Made by a program: the position numbers and the translations under genes. 59,830 nt of DNA from Bacteroidales bacterium (GTDB lineage Bacteria > Bacteroidota > Bacteroidia > Bacteroidales > P3): the NCBI GenBank assembly GCA_017454015.1, contig JAFTDW010000030.1:1-59830 (forward strand), written 5' to 3'. Positions 1-58,830 of the stretch are shown here, piece by piece (the stretch's first letter is position 1; each line of letters opens with the position of its first letter). The notes beneath the pieces were generated by a model. The model ran no database searches, was not told the DNA's origin, and saw only the letters and a program-made list of their open reading frames with translations.

Positions 1-606
1 AACGAGTTCGGCTATGGTGGCCTTGTCGTCGATAACCCAGAAGCGGTGCCCAAAGCCATCTTCCTTGGCGATGAAGTCATAGATGGGTTTCTTGGCGGTG
101 ATGCCGGCAACGATCTCGTCGATGCGGGCCACGGCGGGGTAGGCGAAGAAAACGGGTTCCACGTTGGCATTGGTTATACGCACGTGTTTCATGCGGTCTT
201 CCTCTTTGTCCTTGCGGGTGAGCTCGTGTTTCTTGATGACTTTGTTCACGTAGTCCTCACTGTATGCGCAGGCCACAATGCCGTACTGCCATTTGGCGTT
301 GGCATCGGTGGGGTTCATGCTCTGGGCATATATGTAGAGCTTCTCCTCCTCGTCCTTGACAAGCCAGCCAAGGTCTTTGAACAGGTTGTAGTTCTTCACC
401 ACTTGGAGGTAGACCTCGGGCGAATGTTCGTCGGTGCCTTTGGGCAGGTCTATCTCGGCTTTGGTAACGTGAAGAAGGCTGTAGGGGTTGCCCTCGCATT
501 CAACGCGAGCCTCTTCGGAATTCAGCACGTCGTAGGGACGCGAAGCCAGTTTCTCGACAATGTCGACGGGCGGCCTAAAGCCCTTGAAAGGTTTGATTAC
601 GCTCAT
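1..606 (-). CDS. DUF1015 family protein, 3'-truncated by window edge
   Basis: This is the first 202 codons of a gene that runs off the left edge of the window; no stop is seen. The ATG is at 604-606. The N-terminus contains FRPP, ASRPYDVLNSEEAR and NPYSLLH, which I recognise as the start of the DUF1015 family, about 410 residues long when complete. The biochemical function of this family is not established; members are soluble and often sit near serine biosynthesis genes. The gene lies 29 bases downstream of pta on the same strand and is probably co-transcribed with it. The position normally held by acetate kinase (ackA) after pta is occupied by this gene. Family call is confident, function unknown. 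Confidence 0.8.
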   Translation of the reverse strand, partial: MSVIKPFKGFRPPVDIVEKLASRPYDVLNSEEARVECEGNPYSLLHVTKAEIDLPKGTDEHSPEVYLQVVKNYNLFKDLGWLVKDEEEKLYIYAQSMNPTDANAKWQYGIVACAYSEDYVNKVIKKHELTRKDKEEDRMKHVRITNANVEPVFFAYPAVARIDEIVAGITAKKPIYDFIAKEDGFGHRFWVIDDKATIAELV

Positions 607-635
607 GATTTTGGTTGTTAAATTTTTCTCTGTGA

Positions 636-1640
636 TTATTTGCTGGCGGCTTGCATGGCGGTGATGGCCACCACGTTGACGATGTCCTCCACGGAGCATC
701 CACGGCTGAGGTCGTTGATAGGCGCTGCCATACCTTGCATCACGGGGCCTATGGCCTCGGCACCGGCGAGACGCTGTACCAGCTTGTAGCAGATGTTACC
801 GCTCTGAAGGTCGGGGAATACCAGCACGTTGGCTTTGCCGGCGATGTCGCTGCCCGGAGCCTTGCTGGCGCCAACCTTCGGTACGATGGCGGCGTCGGCC
901 TGCAGCTCGCAGTCGAGCTTCACCTCGGGGTCGAGCTCATGGGCCAGGCGTCCGGCCTCGATGACTTTGTCGACCAGCTCATGCTTGGCACTGCCTTTGG
1001 TGCTGAAGCTCAGCATGGCAACCTTGGGGTCTTTGATGCCGGCGATGGCCTTGGCGGTCTTGGCACTGGTGACGGCTATCTGGGCCAGCTGCTCGGCAGT
1101 GGGGCAGGGGGTGGCTGCGCAGTCGGCAAAGACAAAGATGCCGTTGTCGCCGTAGGTGGTGTCTTTGAGTATCATGACGAAAGCACCGCTCACCACGCTT
1201 ATGCCTGGCAGGGTCTTGACAATCTGGAAGGCGGGACGCAGCACGTCGCCCGTGGCGTTGCGGGCACCGGCAACCTCGCCGTCGGCTTCGCCGCACTTGA
1301 TAAGCATGCAGGCAAGGTAGAGAGGATCCTCAACAAGGCGCAGAGCCTCCTCTTTGGTGAGACCTTTGCTCTTGCGTATCTCGCACAGTTGCTCGGCGTA
1401 GAAGTCTTTCTTGGGGTTGTTGGTCTGGTCGATGATAGTGGCCTTGTCGATGTTCTTGAGGCCGAATTTAGCCACGAGTTCCTTTATCTCGTCGGCTTTG
1501 CCGATAAGGGTGAGGTCGGCAATGCCTTCGGAGAGGATAATGTCGGCGGCCTTGATTGTACGCTCCTCGGTGCCTTCTGCAAGGACTATGTGCTTGTGGG
1601 CTGCTTTGGCGTTGGAGCGGATTTGTTCCATCAGTGTCAT
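636..1640 (-). CDS. pta: Phosphate acetyltransferase
   Basis: A cytosolic enzyme of 334 residues that interconverts acetyl-CoA and acetyl phosphate, the CoA-releasing half of the acetate fermentation route. The length and sequence fit the short single-domain Pta/PTA_PTB family: AEGTEERT near residue 22, CGEADGEVAGA near 117, KVGASKAPGSDIAGKANVLVFPDL split over residues 258-282, and the GPVMQGMAAPINDLSRGCSVEDIV C-terminal signature. The start ATG is at 1638-1640. Upstream, 87 bases separate it from the exported protease gene on the same strand, and DUF1015 follows after 29 bases. Acetate kinase is not in view, so whether acetyl phosphate goes to ATP synthesis through a distant ackA cannot be told. 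Confidence 0.95.
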   Translation of the reverse strand: MTLMEQIRSNAKAAHKHIVLAEGTEERTIKAADIILSEGIADLTLIGKADEIKELVAKFGLKNIDKATIIDQTNNPKKDFYAEQLCEIRKSKGLTKEEALRLVEDPLYLACMLIKCGEADGEVAGARNATGDVLRPAFQIVKTLPGISVVSGAFVMILKDTTYGDNGIFVFADCAATPCPTAEQLAQIAVTSAKTAKAIAGIKDPKVAMLSFSTKGSAKHELVDKVIEAGRLAHELDPEVKLDCELQADAAIVPKVGASKAPGSDIAGKANVLVFPDLQSGNICYKLVQRLAGAEAIGPVMQGMAAPINDLSRGCSVEDIVNVVAITAMQAASK

Positions 1641-1727
1641 AATGCGTTTTTATTTTTAGGTTAAAATTTTTCTGGACTTTCCTGATATTATCTGTCTTGG
1701 TCTTTGGGTTTAGGTAGGGGAGGGGGG

Positions 1728-3422
1728 CTACAGTTTTATTATAGTGTGGCTGTAGGTGTGTCCGTTGCAGTCGAGCTGGAGGCGGTATGTGCCGGCTGGA
1801 ATGGTTGAGACGTTTATTTGTTGTGCCGTGGTGGTGAGTATGGTGGTGCCCTCGCACACGGTGCGTCCGCTGAGGTCGCATATACGGTAGTTGGCTCTAC
1901 CTATCTCGTCTATTTTCAAGTTTATGCGGTCTTTTGAGGGGTTGGGGTATATGAGCATCTGCCGTTCCTCTTCGGCGACGTCGATGTCGACGGGGCTATA
2001 GTCGTAGTTTATGCCTTCGAGGCGGGTGGGGTTGGTGCCGTCAGGGTCGAGCCAGTCGCGCAGGCGTGTGCTGCTGGAGCCACCGCCGGTCCACGAGTTG
2101 AACATGCGTCCGTAAAGGTCGTAGCCGCCAGGCAGGTTGTTGCTGTAGTTGCACTTGCTTGTGCCTCCCTGCAGCTGGCCAATGATAAGGCCGTTGTTGC
2201 CAAAGAGCGGCGAGCCCGACGAACCACCCTCGGTAACGCCTTTATTGCTCGTGCCCGAATACCAGTATACATACCAGAAACGAGTGTATCCGCCCGAGGT
2301 GCCTTGCGATATGCTGCGAGGGATGCTAATCTTCTTGTATGCTCCGCCGGGGTGGTGTATGCCGCATCCCGGAGTGACCGAGCTGACATTGGAGCGATCC
2401 CAGCCTGCAAAGTAGGCTTTGTAGCTGTTGGGCACGGAGCGGTTCATCTGCAACAGCAGGAAGTCCGAGCCGTATGTCATGGCGTATTTTGCCTTGATGG
2501 TGGCACCGGTGACCGACTGGTTGTAAACGCCGGTGCGTCCTGCGCAGGTGTTGGTTTGGTAATTGAAGTAGAACACCCAGCGGGTCACTGTCATGTCTTC
2601 CTGGCAGTGGTTGGCGGAGAGGATGTATGGGGTCTTGTCTTTCTTGGTATTGTTGATGAGGGCTCCGGAGCATACGTAGCTGTAGGTGCCGTCGGATAGC
2701 GAGATGCAAACCACGGAGCGTATCTGGTCGCGCCAGTTGTCGCCCTCTTCGCACACCACGTTGATATGGCAGTTGCCGTCGCTTTCACCGTGTGGGTCTT
2801 TGCTGTCGTTATAGCCTAACCCGAGTATGTCGGTGTTGAAGAGCTCTTTGTAGCCGTGGTATATACGGCAGAGATGAAGGTGTCCTTGTCCTGCGACATT
2901 TGCGGGCTCGTGGTATTCAATGCGGCACTCGCTGCCAGGTATTTCCTGTGTGTAGAAGCGTCCGCCCTCAAGGGTGTCCTCGGCAATGTAGCTGCCCAGC
3001 ACAAATTCGCCGGTGGCATCGTAGATATAGAGCGTGGCACCTTCGGGCAACTCAAAACGGTCAAAATCGAGAGACATATGCTTGGCACCCGGTGAGGTGA
3101 TGGCAATGCGCCACACGTGTGTGCCGTCGGCAAGCACGCTGACGGTGCCGTCGGTGCGGTTGTCAATGGATACCGACTGCGCTTTTGATATGCGCATGGG
3201 GTGGGAACCCTTCACCATGTCGATGTCCTGCTGCAGCAACTCCTGGTTGTCTATCGTGGGTAGTGTAACGTTGGCTATGTCGCTTTTGGGCCACGCATGG
3301 TTGAACATAGGCTCGCCGCCATGACTGTATTGGGCTTTCGTCGCATTGGGGGTGAGGATAGCTATGCAAAATACAGCCAAGATAATGAATGGGTTTTGTA
3401 CATCATTTTTTTTGTTTGTCAT
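1728..3422 (-). CDS. Exported trypsin-like serine endopeptidase with T9SS type A tail
   Basis: A 564-residue secreted protease resembling lysyl endopeptidase (chymotrypsin fold, S1-like). Residues 1-31 form a signal peptide ending ATKAQ. A propeptide-like region follows (to about 210), then the protease domain. The catalytic triad is visible: His272 in SANHC, Asp320 in YGSDFLLL and Ser402 in EGGSSGSPLF. Cys residues around the His and N-terminus of the domain suggest disulfides. The last about 75 residues (MLIYPNPSKDRINLKI ... GTYRLQL ... TIIKL) are a Por secretion-system tail, so it should cross the outer membrane through the T9SS and be released or anchored. It is transcribed leftward from the palindromic divergent promoter at 3485-3535. 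Substrate specificity is inferred only. Confidence 0.87.
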   Translation of the reverse strand: MTNKKNDVQNPFIILAVFCIAILTPNATKAQYSHGGEPMFNHAWPKSDIANVTLPTIDNQELLQQDIDMVKGSHPMRISKAQSVSIDNRTDGTVSVLADGTHVWRIAITSPGAKHMSLDFDRFELPEGATLYIYDATGEFVLGSYIAEDTLEGGRFYTQEIPGSECRIEYHEPANVAGQGHLHLCRIYHGYKELFNTDILGLGYNDSKDPHGESDGNCHINVVCEEGDNWRDQIRSVVCISLSDGTYSYVCSGALINNTKKDKTPYILSANHCQEDMTVTRWVFYFNYQTNTCAGRTGVYNQSVTGATIKAKYAMTYGSDFLLLQMNRSVPNSYKAYFAGWDRSNVSSVTPGCGIHHPGGAYKKISIPRSISQGTSGGYTRFWYVYWYSGTSNKGVTEGGSSGSPLFGNNGLIIGQLQGGTSKCNYSNNLPGGYDLYGRMFNSWTGGGSSSTRLRDWLDPDGTNPTRLEGINYDYSPVDIDVAEEERQMLIYPNPSKDRINLKIDEIGRANYRICDLSGRTVCEGTTILTTTAQQINVSTIPAGTYRLQLDCNGHTYSHTIIKL

Positions 3423-3484
3423 ATCTTGCTTGTTTTTATAATTTTGGTTTGATTAGTGTTTGTTAGTTAGGGTCTCTTTAAACG

Positions 3485-3535
3485 TGCAAAAGTACGATTT
3501 TTTTTGCGGATGACAAAAAAAATCGTACTTTTGCA
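3485..3535. promoter_or_regulatory. Palindromic divergent promoter pair
   Basis: A perfect 21-bp inverted repeat (3485-3505 and 3515-3535) with a 9-base centre. Each arm carries a TACTTTTG -7 element (plus strand 3526-3533; minus strand 3494-3487), and each -33 TTTG spans an arm/centre border (plus 3503-3506, minus 3517-3514). The spacing is 19 bases in both directions, matching the Bacteroidota consensus. It should drive glyQS to the right and the exported protease to the left. Since the two -33 to -7 regions lie on the same DNA, the polymerases cannot sit on both at once. Confidence 0.85.
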
Positions 3536-3596
3536 AAACAAAAAAACAAACGTTAATAATTATAAGTTCCATTTCATGAGTCGTTTTCTGGCTGCG

Positions 3597-3627
3597 GCAG
3601 TGTAAGCAAGCTTCCACTGCTCTTGCT
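3597..3627 (+). promoter_or_regulatory. glyQS leader with two mutually exclusive hairpins
   Basis: The glyQS leader from the predicted start near 3540 to the ATG at 3732 is about 190 bases and holds no ORF of note. Within it, GCAGTG (3597-3602) pairs with CACTGC (3615-3620), while AGCAAG (3605-3610) pairs with CTTGCT (3622-3627). The arms interleave in the order A-B-A'-B'. The single base between A' and B' is too short to make an easy pseudoknot, so the two stems are probably alternatives. A regulatory role is inferred. Confidence 0.45.
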
Positions 3628-3731
3628 GAACAAAAACGTTCTAAAATTTTAAGTTATAAGTGGTGACAAAAGCCGTTGTCTTGCGGATGTCATTTATGGC
3701 TTGGAAATAATACATTAAAACCAAAAACACT

Positions 3732-5249
3732 ATGGCTAATCAGGAAGAACTCTTCAAAAAAGTTGTGGCTCATGCCAAAGAGTATGGTTTCATATTCCCG
3801 TCGAGCGAGATTTACGACGGCCTCGGGGCTGTCTACGACTACGGTCAGCTCGGCGTTGAACTCAAAAACAATATCAAGCAGTATTGGTGGCGCTCCATGG
3901 TACAATTCCACGAGAACATCGTGGGACTCGACTCCGCCATATTCATGCACCCTCGTATATGGAAAGCCTCCGGCCATGTCGACGCTTTCAACGATCCGCT
4001 CATTGACAACCGCGACTCCAAGAAACGCTACCGCGCCGACGTACTCATCGAAGACCACATGGCCAAGATAGAGGACAAGATAAACAAAGAATGCGAGAAA
4101 GCCCACAAGCGTTTCGGCGAAGCTTTCGACCGCCAGCAGTTTGTCACCACCAACGCCCGGGTGCTCGACTACCAGCGTCAGATTGACGAAATACGTGCCC
4201 GCTACGCGGAACTGATGAACGCCAACGACCTCGACGGCCTCAAGCAACTGATTCTCGACCTCGGCATTGTTTGCCCCATATCTGGCACCCGCAACTGGAC
4301 TGATGTACGCCAGTTCAACCTCATGTTTGCCACCAAGATGGGTTCGGTCATAGACGACTCCGACACGCTCTACCTGCGCCCCGAGACGGCTCAGGGTATC
4401 TTTGTCAACTTCCTTAACGTCCAGAAGTCGGGCCGTATGAAGATACCTTTTGGCATCGCACAGATAGGCAAGGCGTTCCGCAACGAGATAGTGGCTCGCC
4501 AGTTCATCTTCCGTATGCGCGAGTTCGAGCAGATGGAGATGCAGTTCTTTGTGCGTCCGGGCTCGGAACTGGAGTGGTTCAATTACTGGAAGGAGGAGCG
4601 TCTGCGCTGGCACCTCGCCTTGGGCATACCGCGCGAGAAATACCGCTACCACGACCACGAGAAACTTGCCCACTACGCTAATGCAGCCACCGACATCGAG
4701 TTTGAGTTCCCGTTTGGTTTCAAGGAACTGGAGGGTATCCATTCCCGCACCGATTTCGACCTCAAGCGCCACAGCGAGTTCAGTGGTAAGAAGTTGCAGT
4801 ATTTCGATCCCGACCTCAACGAGAGCTATACTCCTTATGTTATCGAGACGTCGATAGGTCTCGACCGCACTTTCCTTGCCATCTTCAGCCATGCATTAAT
4901 GGAGGAGACTCTCGAAGACGGCTCTACACGCACCGTGCTCAACCTGCCGCCAATGCTTGCCCCCTACAAGGCCGCAGTGCTTCCGCTGGTGAAGAAGGAC
5001 GGACTGCCCGAGAAAGCCCGAGAGATTGTCGACTTGCTGAAAAATCACTACATGGTGCAGTATGACGAAAAAGATGCCATCGGCCGCCGCTATCGCCGTC
5101 AAGATGCCATAGGCACTCCGTTCTGCATCACTGTCGACAACGACACACTCGCCGACGGCTCGGTCACTGTGCGCCGTCGCGACACCATGCAGCAAGAGCG
5201 TATGCCTATCGACAATCTCTTGATGTACATCCACAACAACACACATTAA
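3732..5249 (+). CDS. glyQS: Glycyl-tRNA synthetase (alpha2 type)
   Basis: A 505-residue cytosolic class II synthetase that charges tRNA-Gly. It is the single-chain dimeric type found in Bacteroidota, archaea and eukaryotes, not the GlyQ/GlyS tetramer. The N-terminal FPSSEIYDGLGAVYDYG block is motif 1 context; motif 2 is GKAFRNEI...FRMREFEQME near residues 235-260; motif 3 is ETSIGLDRTFLA near 371; and the anticodon-binding domain covers about 400-505. The start is ATG at 3732 (MANQEELF). It has its own promoter in the palindrome at 3485-3535 and a long, possibly structured leader. Nothing in the sequence looks damaged. Confidence 0.96.
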   Translation: MANQEELFKKVVAHAKEYGFIFPSSEIYDGLGAVYDYGQLGVELKNNIKQYWWRSMVQFHENIVGLDSAIFMHPRIWKASGHVDAFNDPLIDNRDSKKRYRADVLIEDHMAKIEDKINKECEKAHKRFGEAFDRQQFVTTNARVLDYQRQIDEIRARYAELMNANDLDGLKQLILDLGIVCPISGTRNWTDVRQFNLMFATKMGSVIDDSDTLYLRPETAQGIFVNFLNVQKSGRMKIPFGIAQIGKAFRNEIVARQFIFRMREFEQMEMQFFVRPGSELEWFNYWKEERLRWHLALGIPREKYRYHDHEKLAHYANAATDIEFEFPFGFKELEGIHSRTDFDLKRHSEFSGKKLQYFDPDLNESYTPYVIETSIGLDRTFLAIFSHALMEETLEDGSTRTVLNLPPMLAPYKAAVLPLVKKDGLPEKAREIVDLLKNHYMVQYDEKDAIGRRYRRQDAIGTPFCITVDNDTLADGSVTVRRRDTMQQERMPIDNLLMYIHNNTH

Positions 5250-5263
5250 TAATAAAAAAAATT

Positions 5264-5287
5264 GCAATCCCGTTGCTACGGGATTGC
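5264..5287 (-). terminator. Hairpin with T-run on the minus strand, downstream of glyQS
   Basis: GCAATCCCG (5264-5272) pairs with CGGGATTGC (5279-5287) around a 6-base loop. An A-run at 5254-5261 precedes it on the plus strand, so the classical stem-plus-U-tract arrangement reads leftward. No minus-strand gene ends here, so it may stop antisense transcription entering glyQS. On the plus strand it could simply stabilise the glyQS 3' end. Confidence 0.5.
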
Positions 5288-5313
5288 GAAACAACAAATA
5301 AATCAACAAGGAA

Positions 5314-5757
5314 ATGAAGCATTTTTCCCTGAAAATCATAGCCTTTGCCATGTTGTTTGTTCCACTCGCAGCTCTCAACGCCCAAGAGTGCCACAAGTCA
5401 TGTGCAGGTCATGCTGGCTGTCCTCACCATGCTGCTGCGCAACAGGGTGTGAAGCAGAAAGCAGATGAGCAGCAGGTCTCTGAGGTCGTGGCTCATCTTC
5501 TCTCCAAGCGCACCGACGAGGAACGGCAGACAGTGGCGCGCAGTTTTGTGCGCCGTCTCAACATGGGCACTGACCAGGTGGTGCGTTTCGCCAAGACTTT
5601 CAAGTCCGAAGGCGAGGCTCTCAAGTTCCTGCGCTATGCCTCGGCATACGTCATCGACCCCCAGAATTTCCACAAGGCATCGGATACCTTCACCTCTGAG
5701 GCCTATCGCAACGAATTTCTTAGCGTTTTCGGTAAGCCAGGCGCAGAGGGCAAATAA
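5314..5757 (+). CDS. Small exported protein of unknown function
   Basis: A 147-residue protein with a clear signal peptide (MKHFSLKII... ALNAQ, about 24 residues), so it is periplasmic or surface-exposed. After the signal comes a Cys/His-rich stretch (ECHKSCAGHAGCPHH) that could bind a metal or form disulfides, then a basic helical region without further Cys (about residues 50-147). I do not recognise a family. The ATG at 5314 lies 64 bases after the glyQS stop, past the 5264-5287 hairpin, and endonuclease IV begins 67 bases downstream. No promoter consensus is evident, so it may be co-transcribed with glyQS. Confidence 0.65.
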   Translation: MKHFSLKIIAFAMLFVPLAALNAQECHKSCAGHAGCPHHAAAQQGVKQKADEQQVSEVVAHLLSKRTDEERQTVARSFVRRLNMGTDQVVRFAKTFKSEGEALKFLRYASAYVIDPQNFHKASDTFTSEAYRNEFLSVFGKPGAEGK

Positions 5758-5824
5758 CACAGTGTTTGCGCTTGCCGAGGCGAGAAGCCGAAGGTCGCAA
5801 AGAAACCAAACAATACCACAGACC

Positions 5825-6670
5825 ATGACCAAATACATAGGAGCCCACGTCAGTGCCTCTGGCGGTGTGTGCAATGCCATACTGGCCGCCGAGGCTATCG
5901 GTGCCAATGCCTTTGCCCTTTTTACACGCAACCAGCGCAGTTGGGTCAGCAAACCGCTGGACGCACAAGAGGTTGCGGCTTTCAAGCAGTTGCTTGTAGA
6001 GCGTGGCTTCGACAGCCGCTATGTGCTGCCCCACGACAGTTACCTTATCAATCTTGGCTCGCCCGACGAGGAGACGTTGCAGAAGAGCCGCGCCGCATTC
6101 CTCGACGAGATGAGTCGTGCCCAACAGTTGGGTCTCCAGTTGCTCAATTTCCACCCGGGCAGCCATCTTGGCAAAATAAGCGAGGAAGAATGCCTCGACC
6201 AGATAGCGCGCGAAATCAACAATGCACTGGCGCATACCAGCGGTGTCACCGCAGTGATCGAGAATACGGCGGGACAGGGAACCAACCTCGGATTTAAGTT
6301 CGAGCAGATTGCGCGTATCATTGGCGGTGTCGACGACAAGAGCAGGGTAGGGGTGTGTATCGACACATGCCACACCCTTGCCGCAGGCTACGACTTCACC
6401 ACCGACATGGGGTATGACTTCTGCATGGACGAGTTCGAGCAGCACATTGGCTTCAAGTATCTGCGGGCCGTGCACCTCAACGACAGCAAGAAAGGTGTGG
6501 GGTCGCACGTCGACCGCCACGAAACCCTCGGCAACGGCTGCCTCGGTCAACCATTTTTTGAGCGTTTCATGCGCGACCCACGCTTTGACGACATGCCAAT
6601 AATCCTCGAAACCCCAGACCCCCTCCGCTGGCCCGACGAGATACGCTGGCTAAGGAGTTTGATGAATTAG
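5825..6670 (+). CDS. nfo: Deoxyribonuclease IV (AP endonuclease)
   Basis: A 281-residue cytosolic enzyme that cleaves DNA at abasic sites in base excision repair, using three metal ions in a TIM barrel. The zinc ligands expected for the family are in place: His in NFHPGSHLG, Glu in IENTAGQG, Asp and His in CIDTCHTLAAGYD, the HLNDSKKGVGSHVDRHE block, and Glu in ILETP near the end. An in-frame open stretch continues upstream to 5465, but the family N-terminus (KYIGAHVSASGG) begins at the ATG at 5825, and the extension overlaps the preceding gene, so 5825 is the start. A promoter-hairpin-terminator unit follows at 6712-6809. Confidence 0.95.
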   Translation: MTKYIGAHVSASGGVCNAILAAEAIGANAFALFTRNQRSWVSKPLDAQEVAAFKQLLVERGFDSRYVLPHDSYLINLGSPDEETLQKSRAAFLDEMSRAQQLGLQLLNFHPGSHLGKISEEECLDQIAREINNALAHTSGVTAVIENTAGQGTNLGFKFEQIARIIGGVDDKSRVGVCIDTCHTLAAGYDFTTDMGYDFCMDEFEQHIGFKYLRAVHLNDSKKGVGSHVDRHETLGNGCLGQPFFERFMRDPRFDDMPIILETPDPLRWPDEIRWLRSLMN

Positions 6671-6711
6671 ATTGTGCTTTATATGGTTGCGTCGTTTATA
6701 ATGCAATTATA

Positions 6712-6744
6712 TTTCGCACAAATGGAATATAAATCGTAACTTTG
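6712..6744 (+). promoter_or_regulatory. Promoter of the candidate small RNA
   Basis: TAACTTTG at 6737-6744 is a full match to the Bacteroidota -7 element; TTTC at 6712-6715, 21 bases upstream, is a near match to TTTG. Transcription should begin near 6751. Confidence 0.6.
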
Positions 6745-6750
6745 CAAACT

Positions 6751-6809
6751 GAAACCGTCAGGCATTAAGTGCGGGATTGGCGTCCTGCGAACTATGCCTG
6801 ACGTTTTTT
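6751..6809 (+). ncRNA. Candidate small RNA of about 60 nt ending in a terminator
   Basis: The transcript predicted from the promoter at 6712-6744 would be almost entirely one hairpin. CGTCAGGCAT (6756-6765) pairs with ATGCCTGACG (6794-6803). Inside, AGTGCGGGA (6768-6776) pairs with TCCTGC (6783-6788) and, after a 2-base bulge, ACT (6791-6793), with one G-U pair. TTTTTT follows at 6804-6809. There is no ORF in it. It could also be read as the nfo terminator; the separate promoter between nfo and the hairpin is what argues for an independent RNA. No known RNA family is recognised. Confidence 0.5.
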
Positions 6810-6874
6810 GCATACCCGGTAGCGTGTGCGATTTGTAGGAAATGACGGCGAACAGGTGCAATAAGATTCCCTGT

Positions 6875-8485
6875 TTACCGAACCAGTCGAACGGCGAAGC
6901 CGCAATTCCGGTTGTCGTTGTGGTTCGCTTCCAGGAATTTGCTGGCGAAGTACAGAAAATACGCGTTGCCACTGTTATAGTGTGTCGACGACCAGTATAG
7001 TCCGTGTGTCCCGACATAGTTTACGCTCATGCCTGTGCGACAGCCTGCTGCGGGCAGGAATACTGCACCGGCGGCCTCCATTAAGAACCAAGCCTTCGCT
7101 GTATAGTTGTTGCCAAATACAGCTTGAGCATCGTTGATGTAGTTCGGTGCGGTAGCGCCGGACGGTTGGGTGTATTCGTCGGGGAATAGGATGATACCGT
7201 TTATGTTGTTTACTTTTGCTTTGGCATAGCGGGCATTGGCAGTGTTCCCTATTTTTGAGGCTTTGCGTACATTCATCAGGGTGTCCCAGTTGGCGGCCGA
7301 GAGTGTTCGCCACATGCCAGATTCATTGCCACCGTTAACTATGCTGTCGTATCCCCAGTCGGCTTTGTCGTAATCTGCGGTAAGGTCGAGAGTGTACGAC
7401 GAGCCATTGGTGGGACCATATCCGTAGCCGATGTTTTTGTCGAACTTATAGCTGGTGTGGTATGGTTGATAGTATAGGTTTCCGTTACCAACCCATCCGC
7501 TGGTGCCCCAGCCAAACAGGTCGCGCGAGGCGTTGATGGCGCTTGTGTTCTGCTTGCCGGTGGCTCCTATGTAGTCGTAATGCCGGTCGGCAAATTTCCA
7601 GTATGCATCTGGGCAATCGCCTATGTATTGCAGGTTGCCGGGAGAGAATACCACCTTGGCTGTTGCCGATGTGCTGAACTTGTGCGCTTTGAATGTAATG
7701 TTGCTAAGATTGACGCTGGTGATTTTGCCTCGCTCCACCTTTACAGAGTCTTTGACTGTGGAGTATACAGAACCGTCGGCGGCCGTCACCAGTATGCGAA
7801 ACTTGTTGTATGTGCCGCACGGCAGATACATGTAGAAGTCGTGTCGCTGTGCAACGCTTGGGGCATTCAGGCAGGCCAGTGTGGTCACGTTGGTGCCTTT
7901 GGGGGTTGTGAGTTGGGGCGAATGGGCGGAGCCTGTGATGGAGGAGACGCCGTTGGTGTTTTTGTCGGTTGACACTGCAATGCGGCTAACGCTCACCGAT
8001 TGGGATGACGATACTCGGAAACATACCACGCCGCACAGGTGATAGAAGTCTATGTAGAATTCTTTCTGGTTTTTTTTGTCGGCCGTGATAGTGGCATACA
8101 TAGGCACTTGCTTGAGGCTGCCGTCTGTGCTGTGCTGTACGGCTGGCAGGTTTATCTGCTTCTCTTCGGTGTGTATCTTTGCCGGGTATACCACGCTGAA
8201 TGGGCTGTTGTTAATCATGCCTCCGGAGTGGTATGTAAATTCCCCGTTGCCGGTCCCTTCTCCTTTGTTGAGAGTGTAGGTGGCATTGCTTTTTTGTGCG
8301 TCGTACACACTTATCGTGTCTTCACTGCTCCAGTTCAGTGCATTGTCTGCGAATTCAATCTTGCCGTCGGCATTGAACTTCTCGGCGGTGGCAATGAAGG
8401 TTTTGTCGTCGCCGTCCTTCTGGCACGATACTGCCAGTAGAACTGCAGCGGTCATCGTCGCCACCAATATTGCGCGGTCTCTCAT
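6875..8485 (-). CDS. Lipoprotein with C-terminal FISUMP-type domain
   Basis: A 536-residue surface or periplasmic lipoprotein. The start is taken at the ATG at 8483-8485 (MRDRAILV), which gives a proper signal peptide and lipobox (LLAVSC); the longer open frame begins with an unlikely leader and nearly touches the next gene. Residues about 25-270 are beta-rich and resemble the N-terminal part of fimbrillin-like proteins (TFIATAEKF...). The C-terminal about 240 residues resemble the Fibrobacter succinogenes major paralogous (FISUMP) domain: FSPGNLQY, WRTLSAANWDTLMN, LPAAGCR, YWSST and GFAVRLVR. It is the last gene of a leftward cluster with the M13 peptidase. Function unknown; adhesion or surface display is a guess. 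It resembles the partial lipoprotein at 59640. Confidence 0.75.
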   Translation of the reverse strand: MRDRAILVATMTAAVLLAVSCQKDGDDKTFIATAEKFNADGKIEFADNALNWSSEDTISVYDAQKSNATYTLNKGEGTGNGEFTYHSGGMINNSPFSVVYPAKIHTEEKQINLPAVQHSTDGSLKQVPMYATITADKKNQKEFYIDFYHLCGVVCFRVSSSQSVSVSRIAVSTDKNTNGVSSITGSAHSPQLTTPKGTNVTTLACLNAPSVAQRHDFYMYLPCGTYNKFRILVTAADGSVYSTVKDSVKVERGKITSVNLSNITFKAHKFSTSATAKVVFSPGNLQYIGDCPDAYWKFADRHYDYIGATGKQNTSAINASRDLFGWGTSGWVGNGNLYYQPYHTSYKFDKNIGYGYGPTNGSSYTLDLTADYDKADWGYDSIVNGGNESGMWRTLSAANWDTLMNVRKASKIGNTANARYAKAKVNNINGIILFPDEYTQPSGATAPNYINDAQAVFGNNYTAKAWFLMEAAGAVFLPAAGCRTGMSVNYVGTHGLYWSSTHYNSGNAYFLYFASKFLEANHNDNRNCGFAVRLVR

Positions 8486-8535
8486 TTCCAATTCTATTAG
8501 TCGGATCACGGCTGTTTGCACACGGCCTGCAAATG

Positions 8536-9090
8536 TCAATCGTATACTATTGCAGGGCGTTTGCTGTTTTTGAGTATGAATTTGCCCGACTCCGAGGCGG
8601 CGTTCTGTAGAGCCTTCTGCATGCCGTCGATAACATCTTTTTTGTTACCTTTGCCTTTGCTGTTGAACTCCATCTTGGCTATAATGTCGCCGCCACGGTT
8701 CTCGATAAATTCTATCGTGCCGATGGCATAGCCGGTGCTGCCCACCTGTTGAAGCGTCACACGCATGGTGTAGGTGGCGCGCGGCAGTTTGCCGCACCGT
8801 ACTCCGAGGCCCTCGCTTAGGGATTCCGACAGGGTGCCGAGAAAAGTCTTCTCCAGCAGCGGGCGTATCTCTTTGTCCCACCGCGTTTGCCAGTTGTCGC
8901 CCTCTGCGTCGCACATCTCCATCACAAAGTTCTTCTCGGTTTTTTGGTCAAAGCGGCACCTTTCGTAGACAAACACCGTGTTGAGCTCCTGTTCGCCACG
9001 CAGGAAGTAGAGCGTGCCGTCAGTGAGCTTCTGGGCCTGTAGTGTGAAGGCTGTCAGCAGCGACAGCAGTAGTAAGACGGTTTTTCTCAT
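8536..9090 (-). CDS. Exported protein of unknown function
   Basis: A 184-residue protein with an N-terminal signal peptide (MRKTVLLLLSLLTAFTLQAQ, cleaved after AQA or QAQ). The mature part has a central beta-rich segment (ATYTMRVTLQQVG, YAIGTIEFIE) and ends KRPAIVYD. I recognise no family with confidence; the layout resembles Bacteroidota exported proteins with a small alpha/beta domain. It begins 3 bases after the stop of the M13 peptidase gene, so it is almost certainly translated from the same mRNA, and 50 bases separate it from the FISUMP lipoprotein start. Confidence 0.65.
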   Translation of the reverse strand: MRKTVLLLLSLLTAFTLQAQKLTDGTLYFLRGEQELNTVFVYERCRFDQKTEKNFVMEMCDAEGDNWQTRWDKEIRPLLEKTFLGTLSESLSEGLGVRCGKLPRATYTMRVTLQQVGSTGYAIGTIEFIENRGGDIIAKMEFNSKGKGNKKDVIDGMQKALQNAASESGKFILKNSKRPAIVYD

Positions 9091-9093
9091 GGT

Positions 9094-11154
9094 TTACCAA
9101 AGTTTAACACGTTTTTCGGGGGCGAGGTACATCTTGTCGTTTTCGGTGATGTTCCAGGCCTCGTGGAATTCGTCGATATGGGGCAGTGTGCCGTTGACGC
9201 GCCAGCGTGCCAGCGAGTGTACATCCATCTGTGTGAGGTGTTCAATCTCTTCGGGACGTATATTGCTGGCCCACACCAAGGAGTAGGCGAGGAAGAAACG
9301 CTGGGCTGCCGTGAAACCGTCCATCTCTTTGTTGGACACCTGTCCTTTGGCTATGGCGTTCTGCATGGCCACGTAGCTGATGTGCAGGCCGCCGTTGTCG
9401 GCAATGTTCTCACCGAGAGTGTACTCGCCGTTGGCGTAGAGTTCGGGGTTGTCGAGCACTTTGATGCCGTTGAAGTGCTCTACCAGCACTTTTGCGTTGG
9501 ATTTGAAGTTCTCTGCATCCTTGTCGGTCCACCAGTTGTTGAGGTTGCCATTGAGGTCGTATTCATGGCCTTGGTCGTCAAAGCCGTGTGTCATCTCGTG
9601 ACCTATCACCACGCCAATGGCTCCGTAGTTGACGGCATTGTCGGCGGCCATGTTGAAGAACGGTGGCTGCAGTATGGCTGCAGGGAAGCATATCTCATTG
9701 GTTGTGGGGTTGTAGTATGCGTTGACCATCTGCGGGGGCATGAGCCACTCGTTGACATCGGTGGGACGGTCTATCTTGCTGAGCATATACTGCACCTCGA
9801 AGGCGTTGCTGCGCAGCACGTTGGCAAAGTAGCTGTCGTCTTTGATCTCCAGCGAGCTGTAGTCGCGCCATTTGTCGGGGTAGCCAATCTTGACTATCAT
9901 AGCGGCGAGTTTCTCCTTGGCCTTGCCTTTGGTCTGGTCGTCCATCCAGGCGGCGCCGTCAATGCGCTGTGCGAAAGCTTCCTGCAGGTTGCCAACGAGG
10001 GTGAGCATACGCTCTTTCGCCTCTGGAGGGAAGTATTTGGCGACATAAAGGCGGCCAAGGGCCTCGCTCATGGCACCGTCGACGGTGGTGAGCACGCGTT
10101 TCCAACGGGGACGCAGCTGCTCTTTGCCCGACAGCACGCGGCCGTAGAAGTCGAAGTTGGCATTCACAAAGTCATCGCTAAGGTAGCCTGCTGCTTCGTT
10201 GATGACATTCCAGGCAAGGTAGGCCTTGAGGCTCTCCATGTTCTCGGCATCGAGCACCTTGCCCACCTCGGTGAGGTATTCGGGCTGGGCGAGGTTGAAA
10301 GAGGTGAGCTTGGGCAGCCCCATGGCGGCGAAGTAGCCTTTGAAGTCTACGCCTTTGGCAGTGGCGTCGGCCTGCTCCACGGTCATTTTATGGAAGGTGG
10401 CGTGGGGGTCGCGGTTTGTGAGGCGGTCGTATTGTGCTTTGGCCAGACGGGTCTCAACCTGCATGACCATGACGGCGAGTTTGTCGGCGGGCAGCCCTAT
10501 CAGCTTGTCGTAGCCGGAGAGGGTGAGCTCGGTGGTTATGAGCTTGAGGTAGGCGGTGCGTTTGTCGGCGTTCTTGGCTTCGAGGTAGTAGTCGCGGTCG
10601 CCCATGCCGAGGCCCGACTGGTAGATCCAGGCTATCTGCATCTCGCTGTTGTCGTAGTCGGCCTCGTTAAGGAGTGCGTAGAAGGGGAAGATGCCCTGCA
10701 GGTGCAGTGCATTGACTTCGCTGCGCAGAGCCTCGCGGCTGTTAATCTTGGCTATCTCGCCGAGCAGCGGCGCAATAGGTTCGGCACCCTGCTGCTGCAG
10801 GCGGACGCTGTCCATGCCGATGTTGTACATGGTGGCAATCTTGTCGGCAATGCTGCCGGGCTCGTTCTGGGCGGCGCTCACCGAGTCGACAATGGAGCGG
10901 AGCTTCACTTGGTTGTCTTCGTTGAGCTTGTCGAAGGCGCCGTAGCGCGAGTGTTCGGCGTCGAGGGGGTTGGCGGCCATCCAGCCGCCGCAGGCGTACT
11001 GGTAGAAGTCGTCGTGAAGGTTGGCGGTGGTGTCGAGGTTGGCGATGTCGATACCCGACGTGAGTTTGGGGCCGCGGTTGCATCCCGTGGCCATGACGGC
11101 CATTGTCAAGGCGGTGGTCATGATTATTCTGCTGTTTTTCTTGAAGAAATGCAT
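9094..11154 (-). CDS. M13 family zinc metallopeptidase (PepO/neprilysin-like) lipoprotein
   Basis: A 686-residue zinc endopeptidase. The N-terminus has a hydrophobic segment and lipobox (MAVMATGCNR), so it is anchored as a lipoprotein facing the periplasm or surface. Peptidase_M13_N covers about residues 45-440 and the M13 catalytic domain about 490-686. The zinc site HEMTH is in VIGHEMTHGFDDQG, the third ligand Glu is in GENIADNGG, and NAYYNPTTNEICFPAAI is the substrate-binding segment. The terminal Trp (KRVKLW) matches the family C-terminus. Peptide substrates are typical of this family. Its promoter (TAACTTTG, minus strand 11187-11180) leaves a short leader of about 20 bases. Confidence 0.93.
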   Translation of the reverse strand: MHFFKKNSRIIMTTALTMAVMATGCNRGPKLTSGIDIANLDTTANLHDDFYQYACGGWMAANPLDAEHSRYGAFDKLNEDNQVKLRSIVDSVSAAQNEPGSIADKIATMYNIGMDSVRLQQQGAEPIAPLLGEIAKINSREALRSEVNALHLQGIFPFYALLNEADYDNSEMQIAWIYQSGLGMGDRDYYLEAKNADKRTAYLKLITTELTLSGYDKLIGLPADKLAVMVMQVETRLAKAQYDRLTNRDPHATFHKMTVEQADATAKGVDFKGYFAAMGLPKLTSFNLAQPEYLTEVGKVLDAENMESLKAYLAWNVINEAAGYLSDDFVNANFDFYGRVLSGKEQLRPRWKRVLTTVDGAMSEALGRLYVAKYFPPEAKERMLTLVGNLQEAFAQRIDGAAWMDDQTKGKAKEKLAAMIVKIGYPDKWRDYSSLEIKDDSYFANVLRSNAFEVQYMLSKIDRPTDVNEWLMPPQMVNAYYNPTTNEICFPAAILQPPFFNMAADNAVNYGAIGVVIGHEMTHGFDDQGHEYDLNGNLNNWWTDKDAENFKSNAKVLVEHFNGIKVLDNPELYANGEYTLGENIADNGGLHISYVAMQNAIAKGQVSNKEMDGFTAAQRFFLAYSLVWASNIRPEEIEHLTQMDVHSLARWRVNGTLPHIDEFHEAWNITENDKMYLAPEKRVKLW

Positions 11155-11179
11155 GGTGTTTGGTTTTGTTATTTGATTG

Positions 11180-11187
11180 CAAAGTTA
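11180..11187 (-). promoter_or_regulatory. -7 element for the M13 peptidase cluster
   Basis: TAACTTTG read on the minus strand, 26 bases upstream of the M13 start codon. No clear TTTG is visible at -33; TTTC lies in the right area. Confidence 0.55.
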
Positions 11188-11205
11188 CGTTTTATTTTGC
11201 GATTA

Positions 11206-11237
11206 TTTGGAAATAAGATTAATAATATTTATCTTTG
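11206..11237 (+). promoter_or_regulatory. Promoter for the 11.3-16.2 kb gene cluster
   Basis: TTTG at 11206-11209 and TATCTTTG at 11230-11237 are separated by 20 bases, an exact match to the Bacteroidota consensus. Transcription should start near 11244, 70 bases before the TTG codon at 11314. Confidence 0.75.
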
Positions 11238-11313
11238 CAAATTGAAAGAGTATTGGTGAGGAAGATTAATTGAGTTGATTATTAGTTTTTTGCATACATA
11301 AACTATCATTGTT

Positions 11314-13296
11314 TTGAAACGGCATAAATTAAAAATCTCAAAGTTGTCGATACAGCGCTTTCTTGCGGTGATGCTCATGGCGGCGTGTCCTGTGGCTAAT
11401 GTTTTGGCGCAGGAAACCGCCCCGACCGACAAGTCGCAGACCGCAAAGCAAGACGGCAATTCCAAGTCGGACGACGACGGGCTCACCCTGGTGGGCACTA
11501 TTGGTGCGAGTGTCACTTCGCAGTGGAGTAGCGGCGTTTACAATTCAAGCCCCTTCTCGCTTTTTGGCTATGCCAACATGATTTTTGGCTACAAGGACCT
11601 GTCGGTGCCTGTCTATTTCAACTACACCAATGTGGCGTCGATGGGGGTATTCAAAGATCCAAAGACAGCCTTTGGCTTGCCTACCTATATCTATGGCGCT
11701 ACACCAATGTATCGCAAGTGGAAAGGCCATCTCGGCTACAGCAACATCAGCTTCAACCCCTACGTGTTCAAAGGCATGCAGTTTCTCGGCGCAGGTCTGG
11801 AATACAATGCTCGGTTTGGCCATTTCGCGGTTTTCGGTGGATGGCTCAACCTTGAGACGCAGGTCAATCCCAAGAGCGCCATACAGAACTACAGCGACTC
11901 ACTGATGGGTCTGAACGTCAAAAGCTCCAAGCTGCCCCAGTTCAAGCGCAACGTGGTGGGCGCCAACTTGGGCACTGGTAATAAGCGAAACTATCTGGAA
12001 CTTAGTTTTATAAAAGTCAAAGACGACCTCGGCTCCCTTGGCGATTCAGTAGAGTACAAAGGCAAGAAATGGCACCGCGACTCGTTGGTTAAGGCAAAGG
12101 AGAACCTTGTGGTCGGTCTGGCTATGCAGATGTATTTCGGCACCCGCTTTTACATCTTCGGCAATGCTGCCGCCTCGATATTCACCGCCGACCAGCTGTC
12201 GAGGGAGGTGGATTTGCACAGCATTCTCGATGGTGTCGACACGAGAACGGACAAGATACTGAGTGTCATCGACAAGGCCAAGCCGATATATGTGTTGCGA
12301 AGCTCCACGTCGGCCAACCTTGCGGGCGATGCCGGTTTCGGTATAGTCACCAAACCCTACCGAGGCAAATTCAGCTACAGGCGTATCGACCAAGGCTATA
12401 CCTCCCTCGGTACAACACTCGCCGCGCAAAACCTGCAAAATATCTCGGCCACAGGTAATTTGCGCCTCTTTAAAGGCCATTCTATATTGAGCTACACGGC
12501 CTACGGTCAACGCGACAATCTGTCGAAGAAGCAAAAATACACCAACCAGATTGCCGTTGGCAACTTCCATTGGGTTAATAGGATAGATGATTTCTCGCTC
12601 CTCTTGGCCTACAACGGCATCAAACAGGATCAGTTCGACGGCACGTTGGTTGTCAACGATACCATGCGTGTGAACCAGCTCACCCAAAGTTTCATGGCGC
12701 AGCCTTCGTATAGCTTTGGCGATGACAACACCAGCACTGTCAACTTGAACTACAGCCTTGTCCAGTCGGTCAACCGCAACGAACTGATGCCAGGACTCAA
12801 CGACAGCAAGACGGTGAATTACGGGGTTGGCTACAACTACGGATGGGGGCGGCTCCACAATATGGTGGGTCTGACGATTGACTATGCCATCTCCAATTCC
12901 TCCTACAGCGACTATAACAGCCTTACTTTCGGCGCCCAGTATAGCGGCACCATATACGCTACGACGCTTTCAAAACTGTCGTTGGCAGCCAAAGCCGCCT
13001 ATGGCTACGTCTCGGTAAAAGAGATGGGCGACGCCTCTAAGATATACAGCCCCATGGAAGTGTGGTATGGATATGAAAAAGCCGCCTATCAGGTGGTGGA
13101 TGTCACCGACCATGTCAATCTGTCGCTCACTATCCGTTACCAACACTGTACGGGCCATCTTGCCGCCCTGACTACATCGCTCTGCAACTTCAGCAACCGC
13201 GAGGTGATAGGTACCGATGTGAGTACTACCATGACGCTGAAAGTTGTGGCTTCTTATTCCTACTCGTTCGGCCGACACTTGTTTAACAGAGACTGA
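11314..13296 (+). CDS. Outer-membrane beta-barrel protein, probable TTG start
   Basis: A 660-residue exported protein. The reading frame has no ATG or GTG that leaves a usable signal peptide; the TTG at 11314 gives MKRHKLKISKLS... NVLAQ, a normal Bacteroidota signal sequence, while the first in-frame ATG (11371) would leave only a dozen residues without a basic n-region. The mature protein is rich in alternating aromatic and polar residues (SLFGYANMIFGYKD, HLGYSNISFNPYVF, VVASYSYSFGRHLF), typical of a long outer-membrane barrel, and ends in an aromatic-containing strand. I do not recognise a named family. It heads a three-gene plus-strand cluster with the TANFOR-like protein and the degenerate CPBP protein. 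Confidence 0.75.
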   Translation: MKRHKLKISKLSIQRFLAVMLMAACPVANVLAQETAPTDKSQTAKQDGNSKSDDDGLTLVGTIGASVTSQWSSGVYNSSPFSLFGYANMIFGYKDLSVPVYFNYTNVASMGVFKDPKTAFGLPTYIYGATPMYRKWKGHLGYSNISFNPYVFKGMQFLGAGLEYNARFGHFAVFGGWLNLETQVNPKSAIQNYSDSLMGLNVKSSKLPQFKRNVVGANLGTGNKRNYLELSFIKVKDDLGSLGDSVEYKGKKWHRDSLVKAKENLVVGLAMQMYFGTRFYIFGNAAASIFTADQLSREVDLHSILDGVDTRTDKILSVIDKAKPIYVLRSSTSANLAGDAGFGIVTKPYRGKFSYRRIDQGYTSLGTTLAAQNLQNISATGNLRLFKGHSILSYTAYGQRDNLSKKQKYTNQIAVGNFHWVNRIDDFSLLLAYNGIKQDQFDGTLVVNDTMRVNQLTQSFMAQPSYSFGDDNTSTVNLNYSLVQSVNRNELMPGLNDSKTVNYGVGYNYGWGRLHNMVGLTIDYAISNSSYSDYNSLTFGAQYSGTIYATTLSKLSLAAKAAYGYVSVKEMGDASKIYSPMEVWYGYEKAAYQVVDVTDHVNLSLTIRYQHCTGHLAALTTSLCNFSNREVIGTDVSTTMTLKVVASYSYSFGRHLFNRD

Positions 13297-58822: not shown

Positions 58823-58830
58823 CAAAGATA
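58823..58830 (-). promoter_or_regulatory. -7 element for rplU-rpmA
   Basis: TATCTTTG on the minus strand. A T/A-rich stretch lies upstream; no exact TTTG at -33. Confidence 0.55.

Follow-up and report, generated by a model that had tools for sequence, protein, structure and literature searches.

The palindrome between the gene for glycyl-tRNA synthetase (glyS) and a gene for a secreted protease-like protein, located in a window of 59,830 nucleotides (the whole stretch of DNA analysed), proves to be an instance of a genus-wide pattern, in which the outward-facing promoter pairs of these uncultured gut bacteria tend to sit whole helical turns apart. Judged from its sequence, the site probably consists of two divergent promoters of the Bacteroidota primary sigma type interlocked into one bidirectional promoter, whose two halves would share tracts at whole turns. 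The interest of the site lies in this class of interlocked facing promoters and not in a link between glyS and the protease.

The earlier note on this DNA had described a perfect inverted repeat holding two complete TTTG-N19-TACTTTTG promoters, and this object is real and improbable. Its anatomy was read correctly, including the placement of each -33 motif on the border of arm and centre, where each TTTG forms the last four bases of an arm; the arm length of 21 bp needed correction, as the arms measured 22 nt each, are 100% complementary and enclose a centre of 7 nt (Table 1). Passages of PMC7366714 and PMC6847099 give Bacteroidota primary sigma promoters a -33 TTTG and a -7 TAnnTTTG element, and both elements were observed here, exact on both strands, at a 19-bp spacing, a value taken from the earlier note. 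The strict form TTTG-N19-TACTTTTG occurs five times in the 2.3-Mb genome and two of these occurrences lie inside the palindrome. Perfect inverted repeats with arms of at least 22 nt and a loop of 3–14 nt numbered three in 446 kb of the genome (the window and the palindrome included), while the arms found in twelve 20-kb first-order Markov sequences reached 11 at most. As single-stranded DNA the palindrome folded with a z of -7.9 against 200 shuffles. A scan for E. coli-type promoters returned one weak match, compared with a shuffle mean of 1.3.

Table 1. Positions in the window of the palindrome, its promoter elements and the neighbouring features.
Feature	Position (strand)	Basis or detail
Perfect inverted repeat	3485..3535 (.)	Arms 3485-3506 and 3514-3535; centre 3507-3513
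-7 element TACTTTTG, glyS promoter	3526..3533 (+)	Sequence; start predicted near 3538
-33 element TTTG, glyS promoter	3503..3506 (+)	Sequence
-7 element TACTTTTG, protease promoter	3487..3494 (-)	Sequence; start predicted near 3482
-33 element TTTG, protease promoter	3514..3517 (-)	Sequence
Glycyl-tRNA synthetase (GlyRS, glyS), 505 aa	3732..5249 (+)	Pfam tRNA-synt_2b, HGTP_anticodon
Secreted protein, T9SS sorting tail, weak trypsin-like match, 564 aa	1728..3422 (-)	Pfam
One copy of 72-bp dispersed/tandem repeat, predicted glyS leader	3561..3642 (+)	blast
Facing -7-like boxes, gap 42	11180..11237 (.)	Between ORFs starting at 11154 (-) and 11314 (+)

Both neighbouring genes are oriented outward from the palindrome, and the 564-aa product of the protease gene matched Por_Secre_tail above cut-off (E 5e-12) and Trypsin_2 below the curated cut-off (E 2e-4). 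Two facing promoters with interlocking core elements are well supported by this arrangement of motifs, and mutually exclusive binding of RNA polymerase would follow from their geometry. In Flavobacterium johnsoniae, 4–5 nt separate the -7 element from the start according to passages of PMC6847099, and the two starts are accordingly placed here, by prediction, about 56 bp apart and just beyond the arms. Since the predicted starts lie outside the arms, neither RNA would contain the hairpin, which would form in DNA only.

Searches of 120 genomes of the genus returned 194 facing TATCTTTG pairs with gaps of 17–47 (at least one pair in 85 of the 120), against 9 for the reversed-pattern control, and 130 facing TACNTTTG pairs in 79 of the 120, against 53 for the reversed pattern, 11 of them from one genome. 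Same-strand TATCTTTG pairs, counted over both strands, were near background, as 43 were found versus 34 reversed. Among other families of the order, a TATCTTTG pair was present in 128 of 295 genomes. A locus from another family (L250, G284:C1:228569-228614) carried a 46-bp perfect spacerless palindrome with TATCTTTG ending both strands, which looks like a different kind of object.

The gaps between facing boxes were observed to be phased across the genus. Among 150 listed pairs, made up of 75 of the 130 TACNTTTG pairs and 75 of the 194 TATCTTTG pairs, gaps of 21–22 (19 pairs), 30–32 (62) and 41–43 (24) stood beside smaller numbers at 24–28 (4) and 34–39 (15), and the 75 listed pairs in the range 44–74 peaked at 52–53 with smaller groups near 62 and 73–74. 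Together, the listed pairs form a ladder at about 21, 31, 42 and 53 bp, with smaller groups at about 63 and 74 bp, that has a 10.5-bp period. When pairs pooled from the listed rows were de-duplicated (n=158), 10.5 bp was the best period (R 0.55). The pairs of the 44–74 listing alone, all of at least 48 bp, gave an R of 0.53 (n=64, hand-cleaned from 75 by removing orthologue repeats and three pairs already in the TATCTTTG list), and those with gaps of at least 56 an R of 0.38 (n=30, P about 0.01) in comparison to 0.19 (P about 0.2) for a tandem-pair control of 43 matches, although these Rayleigh P values are too small because independence was assumed. Nineteen of the 75 listed TACNTTTG rows were dropped by eye as not promoter-like, leaving a reduced set of 131 for the period and arm-matching tests; with these rows restored (150 rows) the gap peaks were unchanged. 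Outside the genus, the listed rows showed a weaker period of another phase, with an R of 0.35 at 10.5 bp and the best fit at 11.4.

Grouping of the 60 loci with flanking genes into 46 neighbourhood clusters left the main gap peaks in place. Counted once per distinct gap, the clusters numbered 23 at 29–33, 13 at 40–43 and 5 at 21–22, with 1 at 23–28 and 3 at 34–37; the 5 at 38–39 speak against the whole-turn reading. ORF starts lay within 150 nt on both sides in 38 of the 60 loci. Gaps near 21, 31.5 or 42 bp, where 'near' takes in 14 of the 33 possible gaps, were found in 29 of these 38 loci with clear divergent ORFs and in 17 of the 22 without them, and phasing that is equally common in the latter counts against the interlocked-promoter reading. 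Gene pairs in different genomes were also matched on both sides by blastp. The same gene pair had gaps of 21 and 43, about two turns apart, in L228/L239, of 21 and 32, about one turn apart, in L216/L240, and of 30 and 29 in L234/L236; in L140/L220 the gaps of 32 and 40 were 8 bp off, which is no whole turn. L227 and L242, with gaps of 41 and 31, matched on one side only.

Within 446 kb of the genome that holds the palindrome, facing pairs had gaps of 24, 30, 31, 42, 51, 53, 53 and 54, and those of more than 60 bp had gaps of 75, 78 and 100. Four of the pairs in this genome (L208:5097, L210:16051, L211:12984 and L202:11460) are at 51–54 bp, or about five turns. Two further pairs occur in the window itself: the boxes at 11180 are four turns apart and stand between genes which we take to encode an M13-type metallopeptidase-like protein and an outer-membrane-like protein, and a pair at 58823 has a gap of 78, off the ladder. 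At L199:7285 there is a perfect inverted repeat with 17-nt arms and a 10-nt centre, with GTATCTT ending both strands, that was absent among the listed full TAnnTTTG pairs.

A possible reason for whole turns comes from the promoters themselves. Passages of PMC6847099 report that in F. johnsoniae the -33 motif is faint and that AT-rich motifs at one and at two turns' distance above the -7 element are stronger than this -33 motif. A profile of 93 single promoters of the present genome, with pairs taken out by a filter that left those with gaps above about 50, was T-rich about 22–28 bp above the -7 element, A-rich at 8–12 and mostly T-rich at 3–7. Set against its own reverse complement, this profile fitted best at gaps of 22, 30–34 and 42, and its fit was poor near 28, 39 and 47, but the self-fit score was also low (-1.2) at 21, one of the peaks of the observed gaps. 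The self-fit correlated with the cluster counts at a Spearman value of 0.60 with the boxes left out and 0.35 with the boxes included, and 6 of 32 shifts did as well in a circular-shift control with the boxes included. The single-promoter profile partly predicts the early gap peaks.

In the mechanism we propose, transcription would run from both sides while RNA polymerase occupies one orientation at a time; each orientation has its own -7 and -33, and the second half of each promoter would be read from the DNA of its partner, the A-tract in one promoter's spacer being the T-tract and TTTG of the partner on the other strand. Each promoter would supply A/T tracts to the other on one helix face, and because these tracts are spaced by helical turns, facing promoters would fit best at whole turns, which would place the gaps between facing -7 boxes near 21, 31, 42, 53, 63 and 74 bp. 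The sharing would be greatest at a gap of 31 bp, or three turns, and since each -33 would then fall in the spacer A-tract of the other, the site would be half-palindromic automatically; in this species the two arms would later have converged to identity, either through coincidence or through template switching from one arm to the other. Shared core elements alone cannot explain the groups at 53, 63 and 74 because the -33/-7 cores separate beyond about 46 bp, and at these longer gaps the two promoters would need to share contacts above the -33, such as those of the polymerase alpha subunit. We are evenly poised on the general proposal that whole-turn spacings (2 to 7 turns) of facing primary-sigma promoters are either tolerated or favoured by selection, with each polymerase orientation using the A/T tracts of the partner as upstream contacts, so that overlapping divergent genes would run from one reciprocal element of which perfect palindromes would be the limiting form. 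If it applied to many gene pairs, such a spacing rule would reveal further places at which polymerase reads DNA, namely in A/T tracts on one helix face, and the ladder of gaps would serve as a natural data set of helical-turn insertions and deletions. It would also give a simple route to long perfect palindromes between unrelated genes without a regulator and a caution that a palindrome between genes should not be read as a regulatory link between the neighbours.

The glyS loci of related genomes bear directly on the earlier note, which had tied the core translation enzyme to the exported protease through the palindrome and had looked to close relatives for its conservation. By tblastn, the protease adjoined glyS in 3 of 110 loci, many of which had only 1.5 kb of upstream sequence, sufficient for an adjoining gene; these were the locus of the window (L006), L012 and L036. 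In L012 and L036, where both genes persist, the palindrome was absent, yet the interlocked promoter pair was kept, with facing -7 boxes at the same 31-bp gap. The outcome that the earlier note had named as refuting was thus obtained for the palindrome and not for the promoter pair. Two more loci (L015 and L031) had a 31-bp facing pair upstream of glyS and no protease match, and the boxes were equidistant from the glyS start codon in L012, L015, L031 and L036. The facing-pair test was made by coordinates on all 40 glyS loci from L006 to L045 (L009, L022, L032 and L038 included), a few of which are probably the same genome twice, such as L017 and L039. A facing pair within 320 nt was found in 8 of the 40, with a gap of 31 in five (L006, L012, L015, L031 and L036) and of 53, 37 and 22 in L018, L030 and L043, respectively; the remaining 32 had no facing pair within this distance. 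The special link between glyS and the protease was not supported, as only two other loci of 110 have the pairing and both lack the palindrome, and as L015 and L031 have the same promoter pair without the protease. Regulatory coupling of the two genes is unsupported because the pairing is rare and the symmetry was not kept. The best reading of these sequence comparisons is that the glyS-protease pairing is incidental, and the palindrome seems to be a recent, local by-product and no special switch for these two genes.

The identity of the arms can be explained in several ways. Template switching (quasi-palindrome correction), acting neutrally, may have homogenised the arms of sites that were already half-palindromic from facing consensus promoters, as it homogenises inverted-repeat arms in yeast according to PMC8604942; this is a fair guess at the cause, which we hold tentatively and at somewhat less than an even chance. 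In pairs with gaps of 29–33, arm-matching runs of at least 9 beyond the boxes occurred in 6 of 68, where re-paired arms would give 0.91 (P 0.0005), in 3 of 44 versus 0.39 (P 0.005) after removal of pairs 70% alike, and in 3 of 39 versus 0.25, in listed order, when the pair of the window, chosen for being palindromic, was left out. De-duplication in random order, however, gave a mean excess of 1.8 versus 0.2 and a mean P of 0.07 for all pairs or 0.15 with the pair of the window left out, and it is only suggestive that the arms match better than consensus explains. Another perfect or near-perfect case is the TrpRS/PrsW locus of G012, with arms of 22, to which L318 belongs with arms of 20. Symmetry at the TrpRS locus varied between close species, the arms measuring 22 in L316. 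Symmetry seems to come and go quickly, since L317 has a TrpRS 97% identical to that of L316 and yet an asymmetric pair. Arms of up to 25 were seen at a locus of tRNA-Ser(CGA) and a secreted protein without a Pfam match, the perfect 25-nt arms being at L297:1350-1406 and L298:1137-1193, and the tRNA-Ser(CGA) itself was identified in L276, a copy of the L298 locus. Covariation there was striking by eye but is not used as support for template switching, because the paired changes stayed within the range of shuffles: there were 2 pairs, a count that 416 of 500 shuffles reached. A translation gene (tRNA-Ser, TrpRS, GlyRS or rpsP) lies on one side of several symmetric or near-symmetric pairs.

Plain coincidence, with two strong consensus promoters placed opposite one another at 31 bp by chance and a chance match of the AT-rich filler, is a further candidate, and we lean against it. 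The two promoter motifs account for 12 of the 22 bases of each arm, and the adjoining bases and the A-tract are partly consensus, but matching of at least 12 of 13 bases was found in 3 of 44 pairs (two besides that of the window) versus 0.06 expected from re-paired arms. It is improbable that glyS and the protease are jointly controlled by a dimeric regulator whose operator is the palindrome, with the promoter motifs enclosed in it because the regulator blocks both promoters. Perfect 22-nt arms around a 7-nt centre would suit a dimer, but beyond the promoter motifs the arms of the symmetric loci read carry different letters (CGA, CTAC, CAAC and CGAC), so that there is no common operator word, and conserved symmetry in orthologues was not found either, as L012 and L036, the only two relatives found that have both genes, lack it; no sign of a dimeric regulator emerged from this analysis. 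A mobile-element end, a REP-type repeat or a terminator is very unlikely, as the real dispersed 72-bp repeat that begins 26 bp past the palindrome starts outside it, the sole listed palindrome match in this genome (20 of 139 candidates scored) is the site itself, some of the matches in relatives are themselves facing promoter pairs (for example at G010:C1 and G005:C67), a terminator has nothing to end because both neighbours run outward, and window positions 1-12000 had no Rfam match at gathering score.

Among known systems, bioA/bioB of E. coli has overlapping divergent operator-promoters built around a repressor. Like the present site, it has facing, overlapping promoters with a palindrome between them, whereas no repressor is indicated here. 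In E. coli bidirectional promoters, as described by Warman, Grainger and colleagues in passages of PMC12825309, RNA polymerase binds symmetric DNA in two orientations, one of which excludes the other. The site shares with such promoters of E. coli and other prokaryotes the symmetric DNA, the outward transcription of two units and the exclusion, the last two of which are presumed here. In these passages the E. coli type has a shared -10 and starts mostly 18 bp apart, with 10 and 23 also common, while at the present site the two directions have separate, complete sets of -7 and -33 and the spacing belongs to a genus-wide helical-turn ladder. With two separate -7 boxes 31 bp apart in place of starts around or within one shared -10, the site is not a member of that type, because both of its promoters are complete and their starts are predicted to lie about 56 bp apart, compared with a most frequent distance of 18 bp; by analogy it may nevertheless work like one. 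The earlier note had taken exclusion to mean competition between the two genes, but exclusion need not mean meaningful competition, since none was seen at basal activity in the five tested E. coli bidirectional promoters according to the same passages. The terms 'Bacteroid' and 'helical' are absent from the main text of PMC12825309, and the passages of PMC7366714 and PMC6847099 make no mention of a pairwise interlocked arrangement or of a spacing rule. In the literature searched, which was partly in excerpt and had most subscription journals outside its scope, neither a prior report of interlocked facing pairs in Bacteroidota nor a prior helical spacing rule between divergent promoters was recognised.

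The predicted glyS leader showed further features. A T-box or other known leader RNA was rejected for glyS, as there was no Rfam match at gathering score in window positions 1-12000. The 72-bp repeat unit in the leader folds at -20 kcal/mol and gave 40 blast pieces in 446 kb of the genome, in both orientations and many of them intergenic, and contig C18 carries it in tandem, in arrays of 3.2 and 4.8 copies; in relatives, only weaker matches were among those listed. The distance from the -7 box to the glyS start codon is 206 nt here in comparison to 43 nt (82 - 39) in four relatives.
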